Positions 10,748 through 20,521 of a stretch of DNA of 23,433 nt are shown here, in pieces; position 1 is the first letter of the stretch, and each line of letters starts with the position of its first letter. The notes below the pieces were generated by a model that was given only the letters and a program-made list of their open reading frames with translations, had not been told where the DNA came from and searched no databases. The position numbers were made by a program, and so were the translations under genes. Origin of the DNA: a virus; the IMG/VR virus record IMGVR_UViG_3300024062_000070, positions 1-23,433 of that record; one strand, written 5' to 3'.

Positions 10748-11536
10748 ATGGCTAAACCTGTAGAAGTGACAGATTGGGCGACCTCGGGTTCAGCACTCAA
10801 GACGGCCACTGATTCGTCCAGGTGGACGTTGGGGTGGCAAACACTACCCGGCAACCAACCCAGCGACACTGGGGAACGTCCCAACCTCAACCAACAAAAC
10901 TATTGGCAGAATGCAGTCCACACTTGGATTCAGTACCTTGATGAAACCGTAGATGCAGCTATCGCTAACTATTTTGCGGTCGGGTCGGTCCAACAATCCA
11001 TGTTATCAGAGGTTCAATTCCAAAATGAGTTGGGGACGACATGGGTTATAATGGATGGCCGGAACGTCGCTGGATCACGTTATGAGGCTATAACCGGAAA
11101 CTCCAACATCCCTAACGCTTTCGGTAGATTTTTTCGGATGACAGGTGGTGCTCAAGCTGCTCCACTTGGTCAGGCCCAGGCAGAGGGTACGGCTGTTAAC
11201 GGATTAACTAACCAGTCAAGCGGTGTGTCAGGAACGGCAGCGGGGCAGGGTGGTGGTGCTACAACATCTGGTGGGCGAAGTAATGCCCATACTCACACCA
11301 TACCCACTATACTATCAGGAGATGTGTTCCAAGCTGGTACTGGCCGCCAAGCGTATGGGTCCGGGGCCGGACTATCTACGGCTGGCGAAACTACTGATCA
11401 CTCTCACTCAGTCCCAGCACATACTCATAGTTCCTCAAGTGTAAGCGGTACAGCGTCTGCACAGTTTATGACAGGTGATGGTGAGACAAGGCCAGTCAAT
11501 ATAGCCTTTAATTACTTTATAAAAATAGATAACTAG
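10748..11536 (+). CDS. Short tail fibre with collar-type tip
   Basis: 262 residues. The N-terminus (WTLGWQTLPGNQPSDTGERP, NQQNYWQNAVHTWIQYLDE) is a likely baseplate attachment segment. The rest is a phage tail-collar/receptor tip: GTTWVIMDGRNVAGSRYEAI (about 97-116), NIPNAFGRFFRMTGG, and the terminal GETRPVNIAFNYFIKI, which is the standard end of collar domains. Three HxH motifs occur: NAHTHTI, DHSHSV and AHTHSS. HxH pairs bind iron inside the trimeric tips of T4 gp12 and gp37, so a metal-stabilised needle is likely. The middle is Gly/Ala/Ser/Gln-rich. AAAGGAGAAGG lies before ATG 10748. Adjacent downstream genes probably add to the same adsorption apparatus. Confidence 0.85.
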   Translation: MAKPVEVTDWATSGSALKTATDSSRWTLGWQTLPGNQPSDTGERPNLNQQNYWQNAVHTWIQYLDETVDAAIANYFAVGSVQQSMLSEVQFQNELGTTWVIMDGRNVAGSRYEAITGNSNIPNAFGRFFRMTGGAQAAPLGQAQAEGTAVNGLTNQSSGVSGTAAGQGGGATTSGGRSNAHTHTIPTILSGDVFQAGTGRQAYGSGAGLSTAGETTDHSHSVPAHTHSSSSVSGTASAQFMTGDGETRPVNIAFNYFIKIDN

Positions 11537-11548
11537 TAGGAGTTAACA

Positions 11549-11920
11549 ATGAGCGATTGCGGAGGAGCAATAACAAATCCAATCTACCTAGTGGACCATG
11601 ACTCCTCTACCCCTTACACGTCCCCGATCATTGATCTTAGAAAACCTCTAGCTTCAATCTGCTATCAAATGAAATGGTCGAGTAGTAATGTTATAGGGAA
11701 ATTCGTTTGGGAAGCTTCAATATTTCCTGACCCGTATTGTTGGGAACAACTTGTCTCTTGTGAAGCTGTAGAGCTCATAACTAAAGATCAGGAAACTTTA
11801 AGTGGTATAGTGTCCCTACCCAACATTTGGCTAACGGTTGGGTTTGTTAGATTTAGGTGGGTACCCGACGTGGGAAGCACTGGGACATTTAATGTAGCCA
11901 TAAGATTGGTGCCCATATGA
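11549..11920 (+). CDS. Small beta-rich structural protein near fibre genes
   Basis: 123 residues, no signal peptide, four cysteines. The pattern of alternating aromatic strands (YQMKWSSS, GKFVWEASIFPD, CWEQLV, IWLTVGFVRFRWVPD, GTFNVAIRLV) resembles small beta-sandwich proteins often encoded beside tail fibres in environmental phages, where 'W..leaS....W..l' and 'vrf.W.p..gstG.lnv.i' recur. No named family is assigned. TAGGAG precedes ATG 11549. The stop overlaps the start of the next gene (ATGA at 11917), so the two are co-translated. A fibre accessory or baseplate decoration role is inferred from position only. Confidence 0.7.
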   Translation: MSDCGGAITNPIYLVDHDSSTPYTSPIIDLRKPLASICYQMKWSSSNVIGKFVWEASIFPDPYCWEQLVSCEAVELITKDQETLSGIVSLPNIWLTVGFVRFRWVPDVGSTGTFNVAIRLVPI

Positions 11921-12156
11921 AAACATACAATCCTTTAAATTGCGGTGGTGGCGAGGTAGGACCAGAAGAGTTCGGTAGCTTAGTGGACTTAATACTCACG
12001 AGTGCAACGGCTGTACCTGTCACGCCAAGCCCATACCCCATAGAGTTCGGAAATCCTCCTAGGATTTATTTGGAAGTCGAAAACGAGTTCCATACCCTGC
12101 ATGACTGGAGGGGTAGGGTTTTAACCACTAGCATAGTAGAGGAGGATACAGAGTAA
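11917..12156 (+). CDS. Small protein between fibre genes, unknown function
   Basis: 79 residues. The start overlaps the preceding stop and the stop TAA overlaps the ATG of the large fibre gene by one base, a tight translational coupling that supports a real gene. Visible features are NCGGGEVGPEEFGSLVDLIL at the N-terminus and RIYLEVENEFHTLHDWRGRV near the end, which could be a beta hairpin. No signal, helix bundle or catalytic motif is evident. It may be an adaptor or chaperone for the 1131-residue fibre, given its size and coupling; that is inference only. Confidence 0.68.
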   Translation: MKTYNPLNCGGGEVGPEEFGSLVDLILTSATAVPVTPSPYPIEFGNPPRIYLEVENEFHTLHDWRGRVLTTSIVEEDTE

Positions 12157-15100
12157 TGGCCATACATGTTATCAAAGGTGAAGGATCACCAATAAGCTTC
12201 ACGCCACCATCAACAGGCGTACATTATATAGATACGCTTAACCAGGATACTTATATATCAGTTGGAAATACTTCCCCTACTGACTGGATATTAACAGGTG
12301 GTAGTGGAACAAACTTCACAAATTTCCTAGCCCTTCTAGATACTCCAGCAAGCTATAACGGCCAACAAAGCAAAGTTCCTGTTGTGAGTGGGAACCAACT
12401 AATTTTCGACAATGAAAAATTGATTGACTTAAAAGATGTCGATAATTCAGGCTTGGCCGACAATCAAGTATTCGTGTATGACTTCGCAGGAGGTCAGACA
12501 TTTAAGCCAGCATATAGAATGGATTGGCAAGATTCATGGTCTGCCGGAACCTATAAATCCAACATAGTTGTAAAAGATCAAGGTTGGGTGATGATCTCTA
12601 ACAAGGAAACCTCGGAGCGTGCAGCACCACAACCAGATGGTGAAAGTGCCTGGGGATTAAGTGATAATCCAACTTGGCAACCTGGCACAACATCCCCTAT
12701 TGCAATACAAGGCTTGCGTTTTACCATCGGTAGCGAAGTCGTAACGATAGATGGTTTCAGGGCTTGGAGGGCTACTGACACAGCCAATGAAAGCTATAGC
12801 TATTTAATACAAGATATCACTGACCCTGCTAATACTACTGTTATCACTTCAGGTACGCTACCTCAAGGTCCGGTTGGTTGGGTTGAGATTACCACCTCAG
12901 GCTCATTCTTTTATGAAGGCCAAGTAATAGATATAAAATTTGCTACTGAGGTTAGTACATCCTCAAGTGCTTGGACTCACACTTGGACTCTACAAGATTC
13001 ATCCGGGGGTTTACCTGCCAGTGGGACTTACACACATAACGCAGCGCATGACCTTCTAAGAATAAATATTGAGGCCGATGGTCCGGTAAATATAAAAGGC
13101 GATCTCGACCAACTTAAAGTCGGCGATACACTTTTAATGTTTGAGTTCTTAAGTGCTAGTAGGTTCAATGATTACCAGGTAGCTTCCACACCTAGTTATT
13201 CAAACGGTGATACTGTTTTAGAGCTACCTGTTATTAGGATTGGAAATGGTCAAGCCGTTAGGACTGGTACGCTTTCACAAGGGGATGCAGTAATAAAAGC
13301 AGGTTCTTTACCAGCTGACTATGTTAGCATCCCTAACTATTGGTTCCTCAACCCACCCGTAGGCGGTGGATCTGTTAATGGGTATTTAATCACGGATTGG
13401 AATGCCACACCCAGCCTTACTGATGATGCTCTAGGACTTGATATAAGAGGACACGGCTGGATTGATTCTGATGATTGGGATGTAATAACCACAGTTGTTG
13501 CAAGTGGTGGCGGTGGTGGTGGCAGTGGTGGTGTAGATCAATTTAGGCAATTGGTTGACACTCCAAATTCATATGCAGGGGAGCAGGGGAGACTTGTCTC
13601 TGTTAATACATCCCAAGATGGATTAGAATTTATTGACCCCCCAAGTAGTTCCGTGAATAGCGTCTTTACGAGGCAAGGTGATGTGGTGGCGCAGACGGGA
13701 GACTACTCTGCCTCCCAGATAGGAGCTGATACTAGTGCTGAGGTTGACGCTAAAGATGTTGCTTCAATTAATGCCCATGTCGCCTTACCAGACCCCCACA
13801 CCCAATATTTAACCAGCGCAGATCTGCCCTCGATAGTGATCACTTATTTCACTGGCGTTACATCCACTATTGATGTTGGATATCTACAAAAAGTTCCTTT
13901 ACCGTTAGGCAACTCAGAGAATAGCGTTAGTGCTAATGGTAATACTGAGGACGTTCCTGTATTAATTGCACAGTGGTTAAATGAACCAGTATTTTCAGAA
14001 GGCGGCACACTCCTAGAAACTGGTTCAACATTCACACTAGATTATGAGGCGAGTGATGACTTTACCGATTTAAGTATAGAGGTTGGTGTAAGGACTATCG
14101 GTGGTGCTTTTGTCAGTGTAGCGACACAGGATTTTCCAGTAAATCAGGGTAGGTCAGTTTCAACTTTTCAACTAACAATACCAGAAACATCTTACAACAC
14201 AGGGGACACCTCATACACTAGAATATATGTCGTAAAAAGGGAATCTGGAGGTGTGAAAACACTCACCATATACCAAGAAGGCAGTTATGTTTCGAGGGTT
14301 TTAACGACAATTCCAATTGCAAGTCAGCCAGGGCCTCACGCTACCACTCATGAAGTTGGCGGTTCCGACCCCGTTTTACACGATAATTTAACGAATGCTC
14401 AAGGCTTCCAATCCCATGCCACCATTGATGCTCAACTATCCGACAATGGAACTAGGATTGACGACAATGAAAAAGACATAATACCTCTACAACAAAACAG
14501 TCCACCCGCTGACGGTAAGGTAGCTGGTAGATATTTAGGGGTAGCTAACGATGGTGTGGCATCATTCACAATATCTGATGCTGGTAGCTATAACACCGAT
14601 GGGACATACAGGTTCACACAACAATCAACTACCATAGGCGGCATAGGTATATTTGGTGACTGTGTAATATCTGGTAATGTCCTAACAGGCATTAGTGTTT
14701 TAAGAAGTACCGGGTTTGGGTATGTAGTCAGTGAAGTTGTCACCCTAGATATTCCTGGCGCTTCCGAAAATGTACCAGCCAAGATTACTATTGATGGGCT
14801 TGGAGTAGGACAAGAATGGCAGGAAATTGTAATACCGCCTGGAGGAGTGACTAGTTGGAATTCTAGGGTTGGTGATGTTGTTCCTGAAAGTGGCGACTAT
14901 AATGCAGACCAAATTGATGACGTTGCCACCCTCAAGAAATTCGCATCTCAAGCGCAGCTCGATCAAATCGCTACTAATACAGGCGACATTGCAGGTAAAG
15001 AGAATGAAATAACCGCCACTACTACAGCCGATTATTGGCAAGGCGATAAAACTTTCCAGCCAAAACTTGGTCTACCAATTTCAACGGATACTCAAACTGC

Positions 15101-15551
15101 ATTGGATCTTAAAGAGGATGAAATAACGGCTGCTACTACAGCCGACTATTGGCAAGGCGACAAGACTTTTCAGCCAAAGTCAGGTCTACCAATTTCAACG
15201 GCTACTCAAACGGCTTTAGATGCCAAGCCAGATATAATTAGTGCCAGTGGTAATATGGACGGTGACTTTACTGCAAAAACTTGGGTTATTACAAAAGTAG
15301 GGAGCATGGTAATCTTCGCATGGGAGTCTGGTAATCACCCAACGGCAAGTAGTGCAACCACAGCCACGCCAATCCCAGAAGAATATCGTCCAAGCCTACC
15401 TGTTAGCAACGTCTATATCTCCACTAGCAGTGACATAAGGATGGGCCAAATGAGAGATACTGGCCTATTTACAACGAGCTATAAAGATTGGAGTGGAGTA
15501 GGCTGGGACAGAACTGCCTCTGGCGGTGGTTCTCTGTGTTGGTCAGTTTAA
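12156..15551 (+). CDS. Long tail fibre protein
   Basis: 1131 residues, the largest protein here. It is a mosaic of known fibre motifs: LLDTPASYNGQQ (about 60-71) and LVDTPNSYAGEQGRLVSV (about 463-480), the common 'L.DTP.SY.gq.gk.v.V' unit; a Gly/Ser linker near 450-458; VNSVFTRQGDVVAQTGDYSA (about 498-517) and VTSWNSRVGDVVPESGDYNA (about 897-916), the 'V.s...R.GdV....GDY.a.qI' unit; PDPHTQYLTS (about 547); GPHATTHEVGGSDPV (about 726). A 38-residue tandem duplication follows near 948-1023. The C-terminal domain with RPSLPVSNVYISTSSD and the ending SLCWSV should be the receptor-binding tip. GGAGG lies 10 bases before ATG 12156. No endosialidase-type auto-cleavage motif was recognised. Confidence 0.88.
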   Translation: MAIHVIKGEGSPISFTPPSTGVHYIDTLNQDTYISVGNTSPTDWILTGGSGTNFTNFLALLDTPASYNGQQSKVPVVSGNQLIFDNEKLIDLKDVDNSGLADNQVFVYDFAGGQTFKPAYRMDWQDSWSAGTYKSNIVVKDQGWVMISNKETSERAAPQPDGESAWGLSDNPTWQPGTTSPIAIQGLRFTIGSEVVTIDGFRAWRATDTANESYSYLIQDITDPANTTVITSGTLPQGPVGWVEITTSGSFFYEGQVIDIKFATEVSTSSSAWTHTWTLQDSSGGLPASGTYTHNAAHDLLRINIEADGPVNIKGDLDQLKVGDTLLMFEFLSASRFNDYQVASTPSYSNGDTVLELPVIRIGNGQAVRTGTLSQGDAVIKAGSLPADYVSIPNYWFLNPPVGGGSVNGYLITDWNATPSLTDDALGLDIRGHGWIDSDDWDVITTVVASGGGGGGSGGVDQFRQLVDTPNSYAGEQGRLVSVNTSQDGLEFIDPPSSSVNSVFTRQGDVVAQTGDYSASQIGADTSAEVDAKDVASINAHVALPDPHTQYLTSADLPSIVITYFTGVTSTIDVGYLQKVPLPLGNSENSVSANGNTEDVPVLIAQWLNEPVFSEGGTLLETGSTFTLDYEASDDFTDLSIEVGVRTIGGAFVSVATQDFPVNQGRSVSTFQLTIPETSYNTGDTSYTRIYVVKRESGGVKTLTIYQEGSYVSRVLTTIPIASQPGPHATTHEVGGSDPVLHDNLTNAQGFQSHATIDAQLSDNGTRIDDNEKDIIPLQQNSPPADGKVAGRYLGVANDGVASFTISDAGSYNTDGTYRFTQQSTTIGGIGIFGDCVISGNVLTGISVLRSTGFGYVVSEVVTLDIPGASENVPAKITIDGLGVGQEWQEIVIPPGGVTSWNSRVGDVVPESGDYNADQIDDVATLKKFASQAQLDQIATNTGDIAGKENEITATTTADYWQGDKTFQPKLGLPISTDTQTALDLKEDEITAATTADYWQGDKTFQPKSGLPISTATQTALDAKPDIISASGNMDGDFTAKTWVITKVGSMVIFAWESGNHPTASSATTATPIPEEYRPSLPVSNVYISTSSDIRMGQMRDTGLFTTSYKDWSGVGWDRTASGGGSLCWSV
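14997..15224 (+). repeat. Two tandem 114-bp repeats in the long fibre gene
   Basis: Units 14997-15110 and 15111-15224 encode 38 residues each, beginning KENEITATTTADYWQGDKTF and KEDEITAATTADYWQGDKTF and sharing QPK.GLPIST.TQTALD. Differences are mostly synonymous, which suggests an older duplication kept under protein-level selection. They probably add one shaft repeat before the fibre tip. Confidence 0.92.
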
Positions 15552-15922: not shown

Positions 15923-15961
15923 ATCTCCCTACCATGATATACTCATGGTAGGAGGTGAGAT
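15923..15961 (+). promoter_or_regulatory. Extended -10 promoter-like site inside an inverted repeat that covers the ribosome site
   Basis: CCTACCATGA (15928-15937) and TCATGGTAGG (15943-15952) form a perfect 10-bp inverted repeat around TATAC. ATCTC (15923-15927) can also pair with GAGAT (15957-15961), leaving AGGT of the Shine-Dalgarno in an internal loop. TGATATACT (15935-15943) fits an extended -10 element; no good -35 is seen. A full-length transcript would fold over the ribosome site of the SGNH gene. A transcript starting at about 15950 would lack the 5' arm. Interpretation as a promoter, an operator or a translational switch is inference. Confidence 0.55.
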
Positions 15962-15962
15962 T

Positions 15963-16559
15963 ATGAAGATATTTATATTATTATTTTTTCTGGTAATGCC
16001 AATGATTGAAGTTAAAGCCGACACTTTAATTGTAGGCGATTCAATATTCGCTTTAACCGGGGACGTACCCGACAACCTAAAAGCTGCAGGGCTTGATTTC
16101 GAAATCAGAGCTCAAGTGGGAGCTAAGATAGAACAGATCGCCCTGCAGTACCAAACCTATAAAGAAGAAAACGGGGTACCTTCTTTAATAATAATGGATG
16201 GTGGTGGGAACAATATCCTACGGGGGGCTTTCTTAGAGTGCTTACGTGGGACTCAAAAATGCTACGAAATAATAGATGAAATTTATACTATGAAACGGCA
16301 GATAACAGATGAGATGAAAGCCGATGGTGTGGAGAAAATAATATACGTAGGCATTCACTACCTACATGGTTGGAGATCTCCACTCAACATCCCTATAGAT
16401 TACGCAATGGACAGATTTAAAATTAACGACGTAACAACTCTGATCGATATTCGAGAACCATTTAAAGAGGAGGGGTTACTCCTGGTAGATGGGTTACACC
16501 CAAACGCAAAAGGTTCAAAGATCATATCCGATCTAATTTTACTAGAGCTCCAAGAATGA
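15963..16559 (+). CDS. Secreted SGNH/GDSL-family esterase or lipase
   Basis: 198 residues from ATG 15963. An upstream ATG at 15945 is rejected because its first codons are the AGGAGGTGAG ribosome site. Residues 1-19 are a signal peptide (MKIFILLFFLVMPMIEVKA, cleavage before DTL). Block I is IVGDSIFA with Ser27 as nucleophile; block III is GGGNN (Asn83/84); block V is DGLHPNAKG with Asp176 and His179. These are the SGNH hydrolase hallmarks, and the length is normal for the family. It should act in the periplasm or outside the cell, on acylated sugars, phospholipid or peptidoglycan O-acetyl groups; the substrate cannot be told from sequence. Two cysteines (LECLRGTQKCYE) could form a disulphide. 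It is not attached to a fibre and looks like an accessory gene. Confidence 0.85.
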   Translation: MKIFILLFFLVMPMIEVKADTLIVGDSIFALTGDVPDNLKAAGLDFEIRAQVGAKIEQIALQYQTYKEENGVPSLIIMDGGGNNILRGAFLECLRGTQKCYEIIDEIYTMKRQITDEMKADGVEKIIYVGIHYLHGWRSPLNIPIDYAMDRFKINDVTTLIDIREPFKEEGLLLVDGLHPNAKGSKIISDLILLELQE

Positions 16560-16582: not shown

Positions 16583-16828
16583 ATGGAACCAACAAGTAAA
16601 ATATCATTCGTAGTAGTAGCTGGCCTTGTGGCTGGCATATTTTCACTCTATCAAGTTCTTGGTCCAATTTTCGAGGAGGTAAAAGTTAATTCCTCAAAAT
16701 TGGCAATACACCATGAAGCTATAGTCTCCACTAAAGGGACAGAAAAAAGTGCTCAAGACTTCAGACTTAAAATATCTGATCGCCTTGGATTTATTGAAGG
16801 TTCAATAGCTCCTTGTGTGAAGCCATAA
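16583..16828 (+). CDS. Small single-helix membrane protein, possible holin or spanin part
   Basis: 81 residues. A single transmembrane helix (ISFVVVAGLVAGIFSLYQVL, about 7-26) is followed by a charged, helix-prone tail (EEVKVNSSKLAIHHEAIV, DFRLKISDRLGFIEGS) and one cysteine near the C-terminus. TGGAGGTGAT precedes ATG 16583. This layout is seen in holins, inner-membrane spanins and many unrelated phage membrane proteins. It resembles in layout, not clearly in sequence, the minus-strand protein at 19706-19909. It lies between an exported esterase and a haem lipoprotein, so a lysis role is not assured. Confidence 0.68.
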   Translation: MEPTSKISFVVVAGLVAGIFSLYQVLGPIFEEVKVNSSKLAIHHEAIVSTKGTEKSAQDFRLKISDRLGFIEGSIAPCVKP

Positions 16829-16873: not shown

Positions 16874-18328
16874 ATGAAGAAAATTGTCTTAGCTTTATTT
16901 ATCTTAACGCTGGGTTGTGAGGGTAATAAAAGCGTTGAAGGTGGCAGACCGATCTTTGTATTACCAAATAGGCCCGCCCCACCTATTAGACCTGCACCTA
17001 GACCAGGATTTTATACCGACGATAGACTCCAGCAATCGATAGAAAACGACCTGCAGAGTCTAGGTTCCGACGCTGAAAGGCAACGGACACGTTATTTAGT
17101 AGCTTGCGAGCGTCACAATCAAAATGAAAACCTAGAGCAATTTGAACAAGGCGTGAACCTGGGATTGAATAGGTTGAGTGCTGAACGGTTTATAAATTTT
17201 ACGACTCCTATAACTGAATCGGGTTGTGCCTATCGGGTGGACTTAGACGACTTCTCCATAACTAGGAGTGAGTGGGAATTAGTCGAAAGGGCATCCCTTC
17301 TACAATTTGATATTGGCGGTTCGGTTCGGGGTCAAACTATACAGGCACTCACTAATACTAGACGACCGTGGCTATTCGCTACAGATTTTATAGTAACCGC
17401 TTTTGAAGGCGATGAATCTGCCGACCAAGGGGGGTTGGTGTACTACGATATTATCGATCAAGCGAACACGACAAATCAGTTTTTAGCAGATCAAGGCGTA
17501 ATTTTGCAGGAGCTAGTGGACACGGAGGGGGACATATTATACTCGGGTTTTTCGCAGTCGCAAATTGCGCTTGGAAAAACTCGCCTCCTAGTTTTTGCTG
17601 AAAGCGACAACGGGACGTGCATGGGTACGTATGACACACAACTCGGTGGTGACGATTTATTTTTGAACCCGTTCAGTCTTGAGTTGATTCAATTCCAAGG
17701 GGTGTTGCAATCTAATAAGCTTTTCAAACATGACGCTCAAGAATGGATATGTGCCCAATCAAACGGGCTATTTGGAAACTTCAGATTGAACAATGCTCTA
17801 GGTAATGAAGGTGGTTTTGCTGAAGTGGAAGCCCCAACAAACGTGGTGATCAATGTTAACAATAGAATCGATGCCAGCATTAGGCCACTAGATTGTAACG
17901 GGTGCCACTTCTCCCAGATAGCAATCCCATTCTCCGACCAGATTGGTGCTTTCATTTTGAGAAATTCAAACTTCGATCAGAATGAAAAACTTCTAGCTCA
18001 ACGTTTCTTTAAATTTGATGAAATGCAAGCGATCATTGGAGATATAAATAGAAGGAATAGATCAGCACTTGATGAGGTAGGTATAAATGGGAACCAGGAC
18101 CCGATCACAAAAGCTATAGCCGAACCGTTCCGTAACGAAATGAACTTAGCACAAGTCGCAGCATTCACATTTCTGACACCAGAAGAGTTTTCGGAAAGGC
18201 TGGGAGGTACTGCTATCAGTGCTCAAGTTTTCGGTAACCTTCTTAATGGGGGGACAGTTTCTTTGGCTACGTTAAGCGACAATTTCGAAACGCTTTCCAT
18301 AGAATTAAATTTATTTCAGGACTTTTAG
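16874..18328 (+). CDS. Lipoprotein with a c-type cytochrome (CxxCH) motif
   Basis: 484 residues. MKKIVLALFILTLGC is a lipoprotein-type signal with Cys15 (the lipobox is not perfect), followed by a Pro-rich linker. RYLVACERHN (about 73-82), LNRLSAERFINF (about 98-109), CAYRVDLDDFSITRSEWELV (about 117-136), ATDFIVTAF (about 168), the GFSQSQIALGKTRLLVFAES region (about 224-243) and LDCNGCHF with C341-C344-H345 follow in order. This resembles, from memory, uncharacterised bacterial proteins that share 'RYL..HN...LN.LS..R', 'DLRD.GW' and 'ADWFV' motifs with a late CxxCH, seen in Bdellovibrionota, Myxococcota and Planctomycetota. CxxCH binds haem c after export and needs host cytochrome c maturation. 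Four other cysteines lie in the mature part. It is followed after six bases by a mini-cytochrome, so the two likely work together on the periplasmic side of a membrane. Function unknown. Confidence 0.75.
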   Translation: MKKIVLALFILTLGCEGNKSVEGGRPIFVLPNRPAPPIRPAPRPGFYTDDRLQQSIENDLQSLGSDAERQRTRYLVACERHNQNENLEQFEQGVNLGLNRLSAERFINFTTPITESGCAYRVDLDDFSITRSEWELVERASLLQFDIGGSVRGQTIQALTNTRRPWLFATDFIVTAFEGDESADQGGLVYYDIIDQANTTNQFLADQGVILQELVDTEGDILYSGFSQSQIALGKTRLLVFAESDNGTCMGTYDTQLGGDDLFLNPFSLELIQFQGVLQSNKLFKHDAQEWICAQSNGLFGNFRLNNALGNEGGFAEVEAPTNVVINVNNRIDASIRPLDCNGCHFSQIAIPFSDQIGAFILRNSNFDQNEKLLAQRFFKFDEMQAIIGDINRRNRSALDEVGINGNQDPITKAIAEPFRNEMNLAQVAAFTFLTPEEFSERLGGTAISAQVFGNLLNGGTVSLATLSDNFETLSIELNLFQDF

Positions 18329-18334
18329 GGGGCT

Positions 18335-18658
18335 ATGATGAGACTAATCTTTGCATTTTTATTTTTCTTGGGGTGTGGTGGTGAGACAACCCGAACCGAG
18401 TACGTCCCAATACCAGGTGGTGGAAGCACTGGAGGCAATACTGGTGGTGGAAATCAAAATGGGAAACCTAGTTATCAGGAAACCCAGGCCCTACTAATCA
18501 CTCATTGTCAGAGTTGCCATGCTAACAGCAATTTTCTGAAGTCTGAGAGACAGTTAAGAGCTAGTAGTACCCTGAATAGAGTTAGGAGTCGCTCGATGCC
18601 GCCAAACGGTGGCAGTCTCGGTGACATTGATAGAAGGCGTATTATTTCTTTTTTCTAG
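18335..18658 (+). CDS. Lipoprotein mini-cytochrome c
   Basis: 107 residues. MMRLIFAFLFFLGC is a signal with probable lipid-bearing Cys14, then a Gly/Asn linker (GGGSTGGNTGGGNQNG, about 31-46). The domain has the haem motif C58-Q-S-C61-H62 and RSMPPNGGSLGDIDRRRI with Met88 as likely sixth haem ligand; 'MPP.gg.L...d...i..fl' is the usual class I cytochrome c end. The domain is very short (about 60 residues), with only 25 residues between His62 and Met88. The stop follows directly after IISFF. AGGGGGCT precedes ATG 18335, and an ATG at 18338 is equally possible. Its pairing with the 484-residue CxxCH lipoprotein suggests an electron-transfer or haem-sensing couple. Cytochrome identity is quite firm; the purpose in a phage is unknown. 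Confidence 0.82.
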   Translation: MMRLIFAFLFFLGCGGETTRTEYVPIPGGGSTGGNTGGGNQNGKPSYQETQALLITHCQSCHANSNFLKSERQLRASSTLNRVRSRSMPPNGGSLGDIDRRRIISFF

Positions 18659-18681: not shown

Positions 18682-18936
18682 ATGGCAGCAATAGTCCTAG
18701 TGATAACTTTTCTAATCACCGTACCCACGTACCTGATCAGTGGTTGTATGACCGTCAAACCACAAATAACAGCGTCCCATTTTAGGGCTTGTATAGAGTT
18801 ATGTAGAGGTAACAAGGGGGCATCTAAAATGTACTCAGTGATAGAAGTAAATTATGCAGGTAACACCCAAGTCCTGTCAGAGAAATGCGCTTGCAAAAAC
18901 AACAGAACGTTCGATATTATTAGTTCTCAAGATTAA
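18682..18936 (+). CDS. Small Cys-rich lipoprotein
   Basis: 84 residues. The signal MAAIVLVITFLITVPTYLISGC has a good lipobox (ISG-C22). The mature part has HFRACIELCRGN and, about 35 residues later, SEKCACKNN, giving a C-x3-C ... C-x-C pattern. The same layout is seen in the minus-strand lipoprotein at 19487-19705 (YHCEAICDG ... LKCRCHMG). Short lipoproteins of this pattern are frequent in phage genomes, and some act as outer-membrane spanins or superinfection-exclusion factors; neither can be shown here. GGGAG lies seven bases before ATG 18682. Confidence 0.75.
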   Translation: MAAIVLVITFLITVPTYLISGCMTVKPQITASHFRACIELCRGNKGASKMYSVIEVNYAGNTQVLSEKCACKNNRTFDIISSQD

Positions 18937-19278: not shown

Positions 19279-19490
19279 CGTCCCGGTATACACCAACCGA
19301 CTTTCAAGATGCAATTCTGATCTTGATTGTTCCTAAAACCTTTCTCGCATTCAAAACCGCCAAACTCCATACGATAAGCCCACCGAACACTCCGCTTGTT
19401 ACATTTAAAAGCTTTCTTGGCCCAACCTGGCGAAGCTTCAACACTGTTACAATTTGTTAGTAGAAACATTAACGCCAATACTTTAATCAT
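19275..19490 (-). CDS. Small exported Cys-rich protein or lipoprotein
   Basis: 71 residues from ATG 19490, which overlaps the stop of the upstream minus-strand gene (ATGA). A longer upstream frame to 19598 overlaps that gene and is not needed. GGGAG and AGGGA lie just before this ATG. MIKVLALMFLLTNC is a signal with either a poor lipobox (LTN-C14) or cleavage after NSVEA. The mature part is basic with four cysteines (AFKCNKRSV, GFECEKGF, DQNCILK, GWCIPGR), suggesting two disulphides. No family is recognised. It is the last gene of the minus-strand block. Confidence 0.68.
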   Translation of the reverse strand: MIKVLALMFLLTNCNSVEASPGWAKKAFKCNKRSVRWAYRMEFGGFECEKGFRNNQDQNCILKVGWCIPGR

Positions 19491-19705
19491 TCCCTGTAAC
19501 TCCCATCTATCTCCCCCCATTGTTTCGGTGGTTCCCCCACCTCTATAGCTTTCCCCATATGACACCTGCATTTCAAACCATCTATAGGATTTCGACAAGC
19601 CTCAACCGTCATACCATCACAAATAGCTTCGCAGTGGTACCAGTCAAAATCTGAAATAGGCGTGACACAACCTTGGAGACTAAATAAGAATAGAAGTTTT
19701 TTCAT
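19487..19705 (-). CDS. Small Cys-rich lipoprotein (possible outer-membrane spanin)
   Basis: 72 residues. MKKLLFLFSLQGC is a lipoprotein signal (LQG-C13). The mature part has YHCEAICDG, EACRN and LKCRCHMG, then an acidic, Pro-containing end (VGEPPKQWGEIDG). The C-x3-C ... C-x-C layout is like the plus-strand lipoprotein at 18682-18936. The start ATG immediately follows the TAA stop of the minus-strand helix protein, and no strong ribosome site is seen, so translation is probably coupled. A one-helix protein followed by a small lipoprotein is the genetic layout of an i-spanin/o-spanin pair, but neither has diagnostic sequence. Confidence 0.75.
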   Translation of the reverse strand: MKKLLFLFSLQGCVTPISDFDWYHCEAICDGMTVEACRNPIDGLKCRCHMGKAIEVGEPPKQWGEIDGSYRE

Positions 19706-19909
19706 TTATTTTATCCGTAGCAGTAGGACTTCTAGGAGACCTTCAATTTTTGCAAGCCGCCTGTCAATAGATTTCTGGGTGGCGGCTAGGGACTGGACTT
19801 CTGCAGTGGCATGAGACAAGTCGGAGTGCATTGCAGAAAGCCATAAAATGCCCCCTGCCAGCAATATAATGAAGCTTAGGGGGACCATAGTATTAACATC
19901 TATTTTCAA
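19706..19909 (-). CDS. Small membrane protein with coiled-coil tail (holin- or i-spanin-like), TTG start
   Basis: 67 residues, starting at TTG (19907-19909). The only other early start, ATG at residue 8, has no ribosome site; the TTG has GGGG and AGGAC upstream. One transmembrane helix (VPLSFIILLAGGILWLSAM, about 9-27) is followed by a heptad-like helix (LSHATAEVQSLAATQKSIDR, RLAKIEGLLEVLLLRI). The size and shape match one-helix holins such as that of T7 (67 residues) and also inner-membrane spanins. It heads a minus-strand block transcribed away from the M15 peptidase gene. Membrane topology is clear; the role is inferred from the location. Confidence 0.75.
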   Translation of the reverse strand: MKIDVNTMVPLSFIILLAGGILWLSAMHSDLSHATAEVQSLAATQKSIDRRLAKIEGLLEVLLLRIK

Positions 19910-20158: not shown

Positions 20159-20521
20159 ATGGGTACCATCACTAAGAACTTCTCATTTTCTGAATTTGCC
20201 TGTTCATGCGGAAAGTGTTCATTTGTCGATGGCTATCAGATCGACAATAAATTAGTTCGAGATCTCCAAATAATAAGGAATGGATTTGGTAAAGAGATTC
20301 GCATCAATTCTGGTCTCCGCTGTGCTGACTTCAATCGGAGTATTGGCGGGAGTCCTAATTCTTACCATGTACTTGCTAGGGCTTGTGATATTTCCTGCAC
20401 TACTAGTCGTGATAGGTACCTCCTGGTTAGGCTAGCCTTAGGATTAGGTTTAGCGGTTGGTATATCTAAAACTTTCATTCATATTGATAATAGAGAAACG
20501 CCTATAATTTTCCTTTACTAA
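20159..20521 (+). CDS. M15-family zinc peptidase, probable endolysin
   Basis: 120 residues. The peptidase M15A (D-Ala-D-Ala carboxypeptidase/endolysin) zinc site is complete: His70 and Asp77 in SYHVLARACDIS and His108 in FIHID. FSFSEFACSCGKC at the N-terminus and INSGLRCADFNRSIGG (about 49-64) are typical of phage M15_3 enzymes, which cut peptidoglycan peptide stems. There is no signal peptide, so a holin would have to release it. Several extra cysteines (CSCGKC) are present. It follows the 57-residue gene by two bases and precedes a zinc-finger-like gene. It could be a virion-associated lysin instead, but the small size and lysis neighbours favour the endolysin. Confidence 0.88.
   Translation: MGTITKNFSFSEFACSCGKCSFVDGYQIDNKLVRDLQIIRNGFGKEIRINSGLRCADFNRSIGGSPNSYHVLARACDISCTTSRDRYLLVRLALGLGLAVGISKTFIHIDNRETPIIFLY

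Follow-up and report, generated by a model that had tools for sequence, protein, structure and literature searches.

In a tailed phage, two adjacent genes encode as separate proteins the two haem-binding parts that a family of uncharacterised bacterial proteins carries in a single chain. The viral record that we analysed in full (23,433 bases, hereafter the window) contains a gene for a predicted exported haem-c-type protein of 484 amino acids (the core; 16874-18328, plus strand), followed after 6 nt by a gene for a 107-amino-acid lipoprotein-type mono-haem cytochrome c (the partner; 18335-18658, plus strand). Sequence comparison identifies the 484-residue protein as the core domain of the bacterial haem-c family, and the fused arrangement in bacteria corresponds to the split one in the phage, which makes the phage pair the split counterpart of a two-haem redox module. 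Given the two adjacent CxxCH genes, the homology to bacterial proteins, the contrast between fused and split forms and the conserved haem motifs, the two genes probably specify one exported two-haem module made during infection, in which the small cytochrome would serve a likely reactive haem in the core.

The core gene is an open reading frame with an ATG start and a TAG stop codon. A first-pass annotation had described a 484-residue frame with a lipoprotein-type signal and one CxxCH motif, placed between tail-fibre and lysis genes; this description was upheld, although the second haem-c gene next to it had been overlooked. Read directly from the sequence, the signal (16874-16918, plus strand) ends in LTLGC at Cys15, a lipobox-like motif that is non-canonical owing to the Thr at position -3. 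The haem c motif, C341-N-G-C344-H345 (17894-17908, plus strand), is the only CxxCH in the protein, and shuffled versions of the protein contain one by chance in 0.045% of trials. Among the 45 ATG-started frames of at least 60 amino acids in the window, only the core and the partner encode a CxxCH.

The surroundings of the pair are those of a phage. Upstream lie a sheath gene (phrog_205, E = 6e-71), baseplate genes (phrog_6, phrog_196 and phrog_120) and tail-fibre-type genes (10748-15551), with tape measure families also matched; downstream are an M15 endolysin (20159-20521; phrog_894, E = 5e-27) and, further on, genes for a Holliday-junction-resolvase-like protein and a DUF5906 protein. The pair sits within a phage genome with phage genes on both flanks, in keeping with a phage auxiliary metabolic gene, and contamination by bacterial DNA was rejected as its source. 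The closest sheath proteins come from ordinary phages with contractile tails, for instance Pectobacterium phage Arno162 (36% identity). Several small genes share this region. A secreted GDSL/SGNH hydrolase is encoded immediately upstream of the pair (15945-16559), and no homologue of it was found in the phage collection. Two small lipoprotein-like products with clustered Cys residues are encoded on opposite strands (18682-18936, plus; 19487-19705, minus) and possibly have a spanin-like role in lysis; BLAST detected no relatedness between them. Two further short products (16583-16828, plus; 19706-19909, minus) each combine one membrane segment at the N-terminus with a charged tail, in a holin- or inner-spanin-like layout.

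Used alone as a query, the window core returned nothing useful from Pfam, PHROGs, NCBIfam, PADLOC, PDB, or the viral_contigs, genome_contigs and phages collections. Seven plasmid matches to HDOD proteins (E = 0.7), a match to cytochrome c nitrite reductase (E = 0.57) and one weak match to fatty acid cis/trans isomerase were dismissed as chance. Relatives were reached through a degenerate DNA pattern based on a motif of planctomycete proteins, with homology tested afterwards. This pattern matched two contigs of the viral collection, both encoding proteins collinear with the window core, and an alignment of the three recovered 195 relatives from bacterial genomes; we retained 80 of them, and the E-values of this search are relative to the candidates only. 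A profile built from the bacterial sequences alone then scored the window core at E = 7.8e-35 (Z = 100,000) and all nine other viral core proteins at E ≤ 2e-29; none of 2000 shuffles reached E ≤ 10. Pairwise, the window core is 27% identical to one relative (L005) over 407 columns, and its homology to the core of the bacterial fusion family is collinear. The haem-site cysteines are conserved throughout: CxxCH occurs once per core domain in 110 of 110 members, and the search patterns lay elsewhere and did not require it. The ordered motifs which the first-pass annotation had compared with uncharacterised c-type cytochrome-domain proteins are likewise real and collinear in the relatives. Of the phyla that it had named (Bdellovibrionota, Myxococcota and Planctomycetota), Planctomycetota was confirmed, and Poribacteria and a few Alphaproteobacteria were added. 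The profile search led to a bacterial haem-c family as it had expected; the structure search gave no fold match. The family is patchily distributed, being present in 8 of 294 Planctomycetota genomes and 2 of 289 Alphaproteobacteria genomes (each count includes the centre genome).

The partner also begins with a signal sequence, again read directly from the letters, that ends in a lipobox-like FLGC at Cys14 (18335-18376, plus strand). Its haem c motif, C58-Q-S-C61-H62 (18506-18520, plus strand), is followed by Met88 within SMPP (18596-18598, plus strand), the proposed distal haem ligand. C58, C61, H62, M88 and P89 are invariant in all 34 aligned partner domains (that of the window and 33 cytochrome c domains), a pattern that fits His/Met ligation of the partner haem. 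CxxCH with a downstream Met in a small exported protein is the arrangement of class I-type mono-haem cytochromes, and the Pfam PSCyt1 and Cytochrome_CBB3 domains show CxxCH and Met-Pro in the same order. The score of the partner against Cytochrome_CBB3, however, is below the curated cut-off (E = 0.0015; 19.3 bits against 27), and its AlphaFold (AF2) model is poor (pTM 0.54), with no fold match at E ≤ 1e-3 and cytochrome cz as the top non-significant match, so that the partner falls short of both the Pfam threshold and a confident fold match. When scored with a profile of the bacterial cytochrome c domain, the window partner was equalled or exceeded by 4 of 2000 motif-keeping shuffles; because it outscores only the other 1996, we consider its exact kinship with this domain likely rather than proven. 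The junction of the two genes (18325-18337, plus strand) carries, on our reading, a ribosome-site-like AGGGGG run that overlaps the core stop codon and lies 6 nt ahead of the partner ATG. Together with the 6-nt gap, this makes a single transcript likely, and the arrangement suggests that translation of the two genes is coupled.

The relation between the two genes becomes clearer when phages and bacteria are compared. The bacterial c-type cytochrome proteins (from Planctomycetota, Poribacteria and some Alphaproteobacteria; e.g., WP_227705619.1 of Neorhizobium petrolearium) share with the phage the homologous core of about 430 amino acids, its invariant CxxCH and a companion cytochrome c domain of the same type. 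In 96 of 96 assessable bacterial proteins this domain is fused N-terminal to the core; outside this count are three proteins that run off contig ends and one that is interrupted by a stop (L014), its cytochrome c being encoded by the frame fragment ahead of the stop. An IMG/VR record, 2740892559_000001 (L001/L003), was set aside and counted with the bacteria, as it encodes a fused Poribacteria-type protein; no Terminase_6N was found in it. In contrast, the core is unfused in 10 of 10 viral proteins (the window and nine others), the window protein having no N-terminal cytochrome c domain. A separate exported mono-haem cytochrome c gene lies downstream of the core in all 12 viral records in which the downstream DNA is covered (the window, L004, L085 from LR756511.1, L089, L090, L091, L093, L094, L095, L123, L124 and L127), with one small gene in between in L094 and L095. 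Three other records carry the core and end too early for the partner to be judged (L117, L120 and L122), and L092 apparently duplicates the stretch recorded as L091. Several of these contigs are those of huge phages (254 kb for L004, 595 kb for LR756511.1, 343 kb for L089 and 341 kb for L091), and a terminase was found in the contig of L004 and in LR756511. The latter has a second core of 392 amino acids with a CIACH motif and no partner (L086:11162-13068); its gene immediately follows one that matches Peptidase_C39 weakly. A common gene order is seen in three huge-phage loci (L085:10389-14955, L091:4405-9319 and L004:46-4513), in which a papain-like protease, a helical protein, the core, the cytochrome c and a secreted repeat-rich protein follow one another. 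The pair that the first-pass annotation had thought worth seeking in other phages is thus present in at least 11 other viral records, and its description of the family as non-phage does not stand.

Domains that share a single chain in bacteria but are encoded by neighbouring genes in phages are a classic "Rosetta stone" sign of physical partnership, and the fusion predicts that the core and the cytochrome c are partners both physically and functionally. The recurrence of the same two-gene version in the other viral records, among which are several huge phages, suggests a redox device common to unrelated phages. The phage version differs from the bacterial one in more than the split, in that the order is reversed and the C-terminal extension is missing: the bacterial chain runs from cytochrome c to core and usually on to WD40, LRR-cohesin-dockerin, FGE or DUF4384 domains, continuing beyond the core CxxCH for a median of 803 residues, compared with 133-179 in viral proteins, although a few bacterial members are also short. 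TPR domains and an N-terminal protein kinase are further additions in bacteria; one planctomycete protein (L106:79-2850) comprises a Ser/Thr protein kinase, a PSCyt1 cytochrome and the core. Each of the three alphaproteobacterial loci that we examined has caspase (Peptidase_C14) genes adjoining the fused gene (L012:14374-15963, L077:11929-15890 and L087:3095-4546), which keeps alive a link to cell death or conflict. The Neorhizobium plasmid operon with the fused gene additionally encodes one protein of the ferric-reductase type and one of the OmpA family.

Besides the haem Cys-Cys-His, the residues Y190, R237, G247, E290, N297 and D355 are invariant in the core, and no second conserved His, Met or Lys column was found across the family alignment. 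The lack of a conserved distal ligand, combined with the invariant Tyr-Arg-Glu-Asn set, leads us to consider the core haem more likely to be catalytic or ligand-binding than a plain carrier; different members can alternatively use different distal ligands. The AF2 model of the core is good (pLDDT 79.5, pTM 0.81), and a Foldseek search with it returned nothing at E ≤ 1e-3 in PDB or in BFVD, a set of predicted viral structures; judged from this model, the fold appears to be without a solved relative. The core also matches no Pfam family.

The explanation that we consider most probable is that both proteins are exported, lipid-anchored in the case of the window, and receive their haem from the cytochrome c maturation machinery of the host. 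The small His/Met cytochrome c would then dock on the core, and electrons would be exchanged between it and the core haem, in the way expected of the fused domain in bacterial proteins. This core haem, held by the single conserved His of CxxCH, would lie among Tyr190, Arg237, Glu290, Asn297 and Asp355, and its chemistry may be peroxidase-, oxidase- or MauG-like, or may consist in ligand binding. The place of action would be the periplasm or the cell surface, for example in the removal of peroxide or radicals or in the alteration of a surface component. Di-haem cytochrome c peroxidases and MauG offer an analogy in how such a module may work, as they combine an electron-transfer haem with a reactive haem of low coordination, but the phage haems are on two chains, and no CCP_MauG domain or fold was found in the window core by Pfam, NCBIfam, PDB-sequence or fold searches (stray sub-threshold matches occurred in relatives only).

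Among candidate functions we accordingly rank a peroxidase-, oxidase- or MauG-like one first and plain respiration second. One may postulate that the two proteins are simple carriers that sustain periplasmic electron transport, and thus the energy supply, of the host during infection. The small His/Met-type partner would suit this scenario, as would the ferric-reductase-type gene that adjoins a fused homologue on an alphaproteobacterial plasmid, and electron-transport genes are known in cyanophages (for example PMC5082946). We nevertheless regard it as unlikely, since a core of 430 amino acids is far larger than a carrier requires, shows no conservation of a second axial His or Met, and is associated in bacteria with WD40, LRR-cohesin-dockerin, FGE, kinase and caspase contexts and not with respiratory operons. 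The cyanophage genes, which serve photosynthetic electron transport, resemble the window pair in being phage-carried redox genes; their proteins are unrelated, however, and the window pair is c-type and needs export and haem attachment by the host. An improbable alternative is that the bacterial fusions sense or trigger cell-death-like systems, and that the phage version, being devoid of effectors, blocks them as a decoy. The caspase genes beside the fused gene and the long C-termini of many bacterial members, set against the short viral ones, point in this direction, but the caspase-linked loci number only three from one class, the cytochrome proteins have no PADLOC match, several bacterial members likewise lack a long C-terminus, and the invariant haem and pocket residues of the viral copies are more suggestive of an active protein than of an inert decoy. 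That the two proteins sit on the surface as lipoproteins which exclude superinfecting phages or modify the envelope, with a purely structural haem, is very improbable: both window proteins have lipobox-like signals and a small lipoprotein-like gene and the SGNH hydrolase are nearby, yet a structural role would need neither invariant charged and polar residues around the haem domain nor a second cytochrome consistently paired with it, and several huge-phage proteins have ordinary signal sequences with no lipobox.

In the phylogenetic tree, nine viral cores form one group, and the window core falls outside it, nearer to the bacteria, on a very long branch. We set aside a firm placement of the window core with bacteria from this unconstrained tree given that branch, and an approximately unbiased (AU) test did not reject a single viral clade (p = 0.45). 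It is a doubtful, if specific, scenario that unrelated lineages (a contractile-tailed phage and huge phages) separately took up the two-haem core from bacterial cytochromes linked to death or conflict, split it in two and stripped its effectors, leaving an enzyme with an unsolved fold that interferes with a cytochrome-caspase response of the host.

Phage-encoded c-type cytochromes are seldom reported, because they require export and haem attachment by the host. Both c-type cytochromes and phage redox genes are already known kinds. In a literature search whose coverage excluded most subscription journals, we found no report of such a split pair, of its repeated occurrence in distant phages or of the core fold, which appears to be unsolved. 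The main text of a paper on huge phages does not mention cytochromes (PMC7162821). A conserved pair in distant phages that mirrors a bacterial fusion makes the partnership directly testable, and a structure of the core would show a new haem-c fold and the purpose that it serves in phages and bacteria alike.
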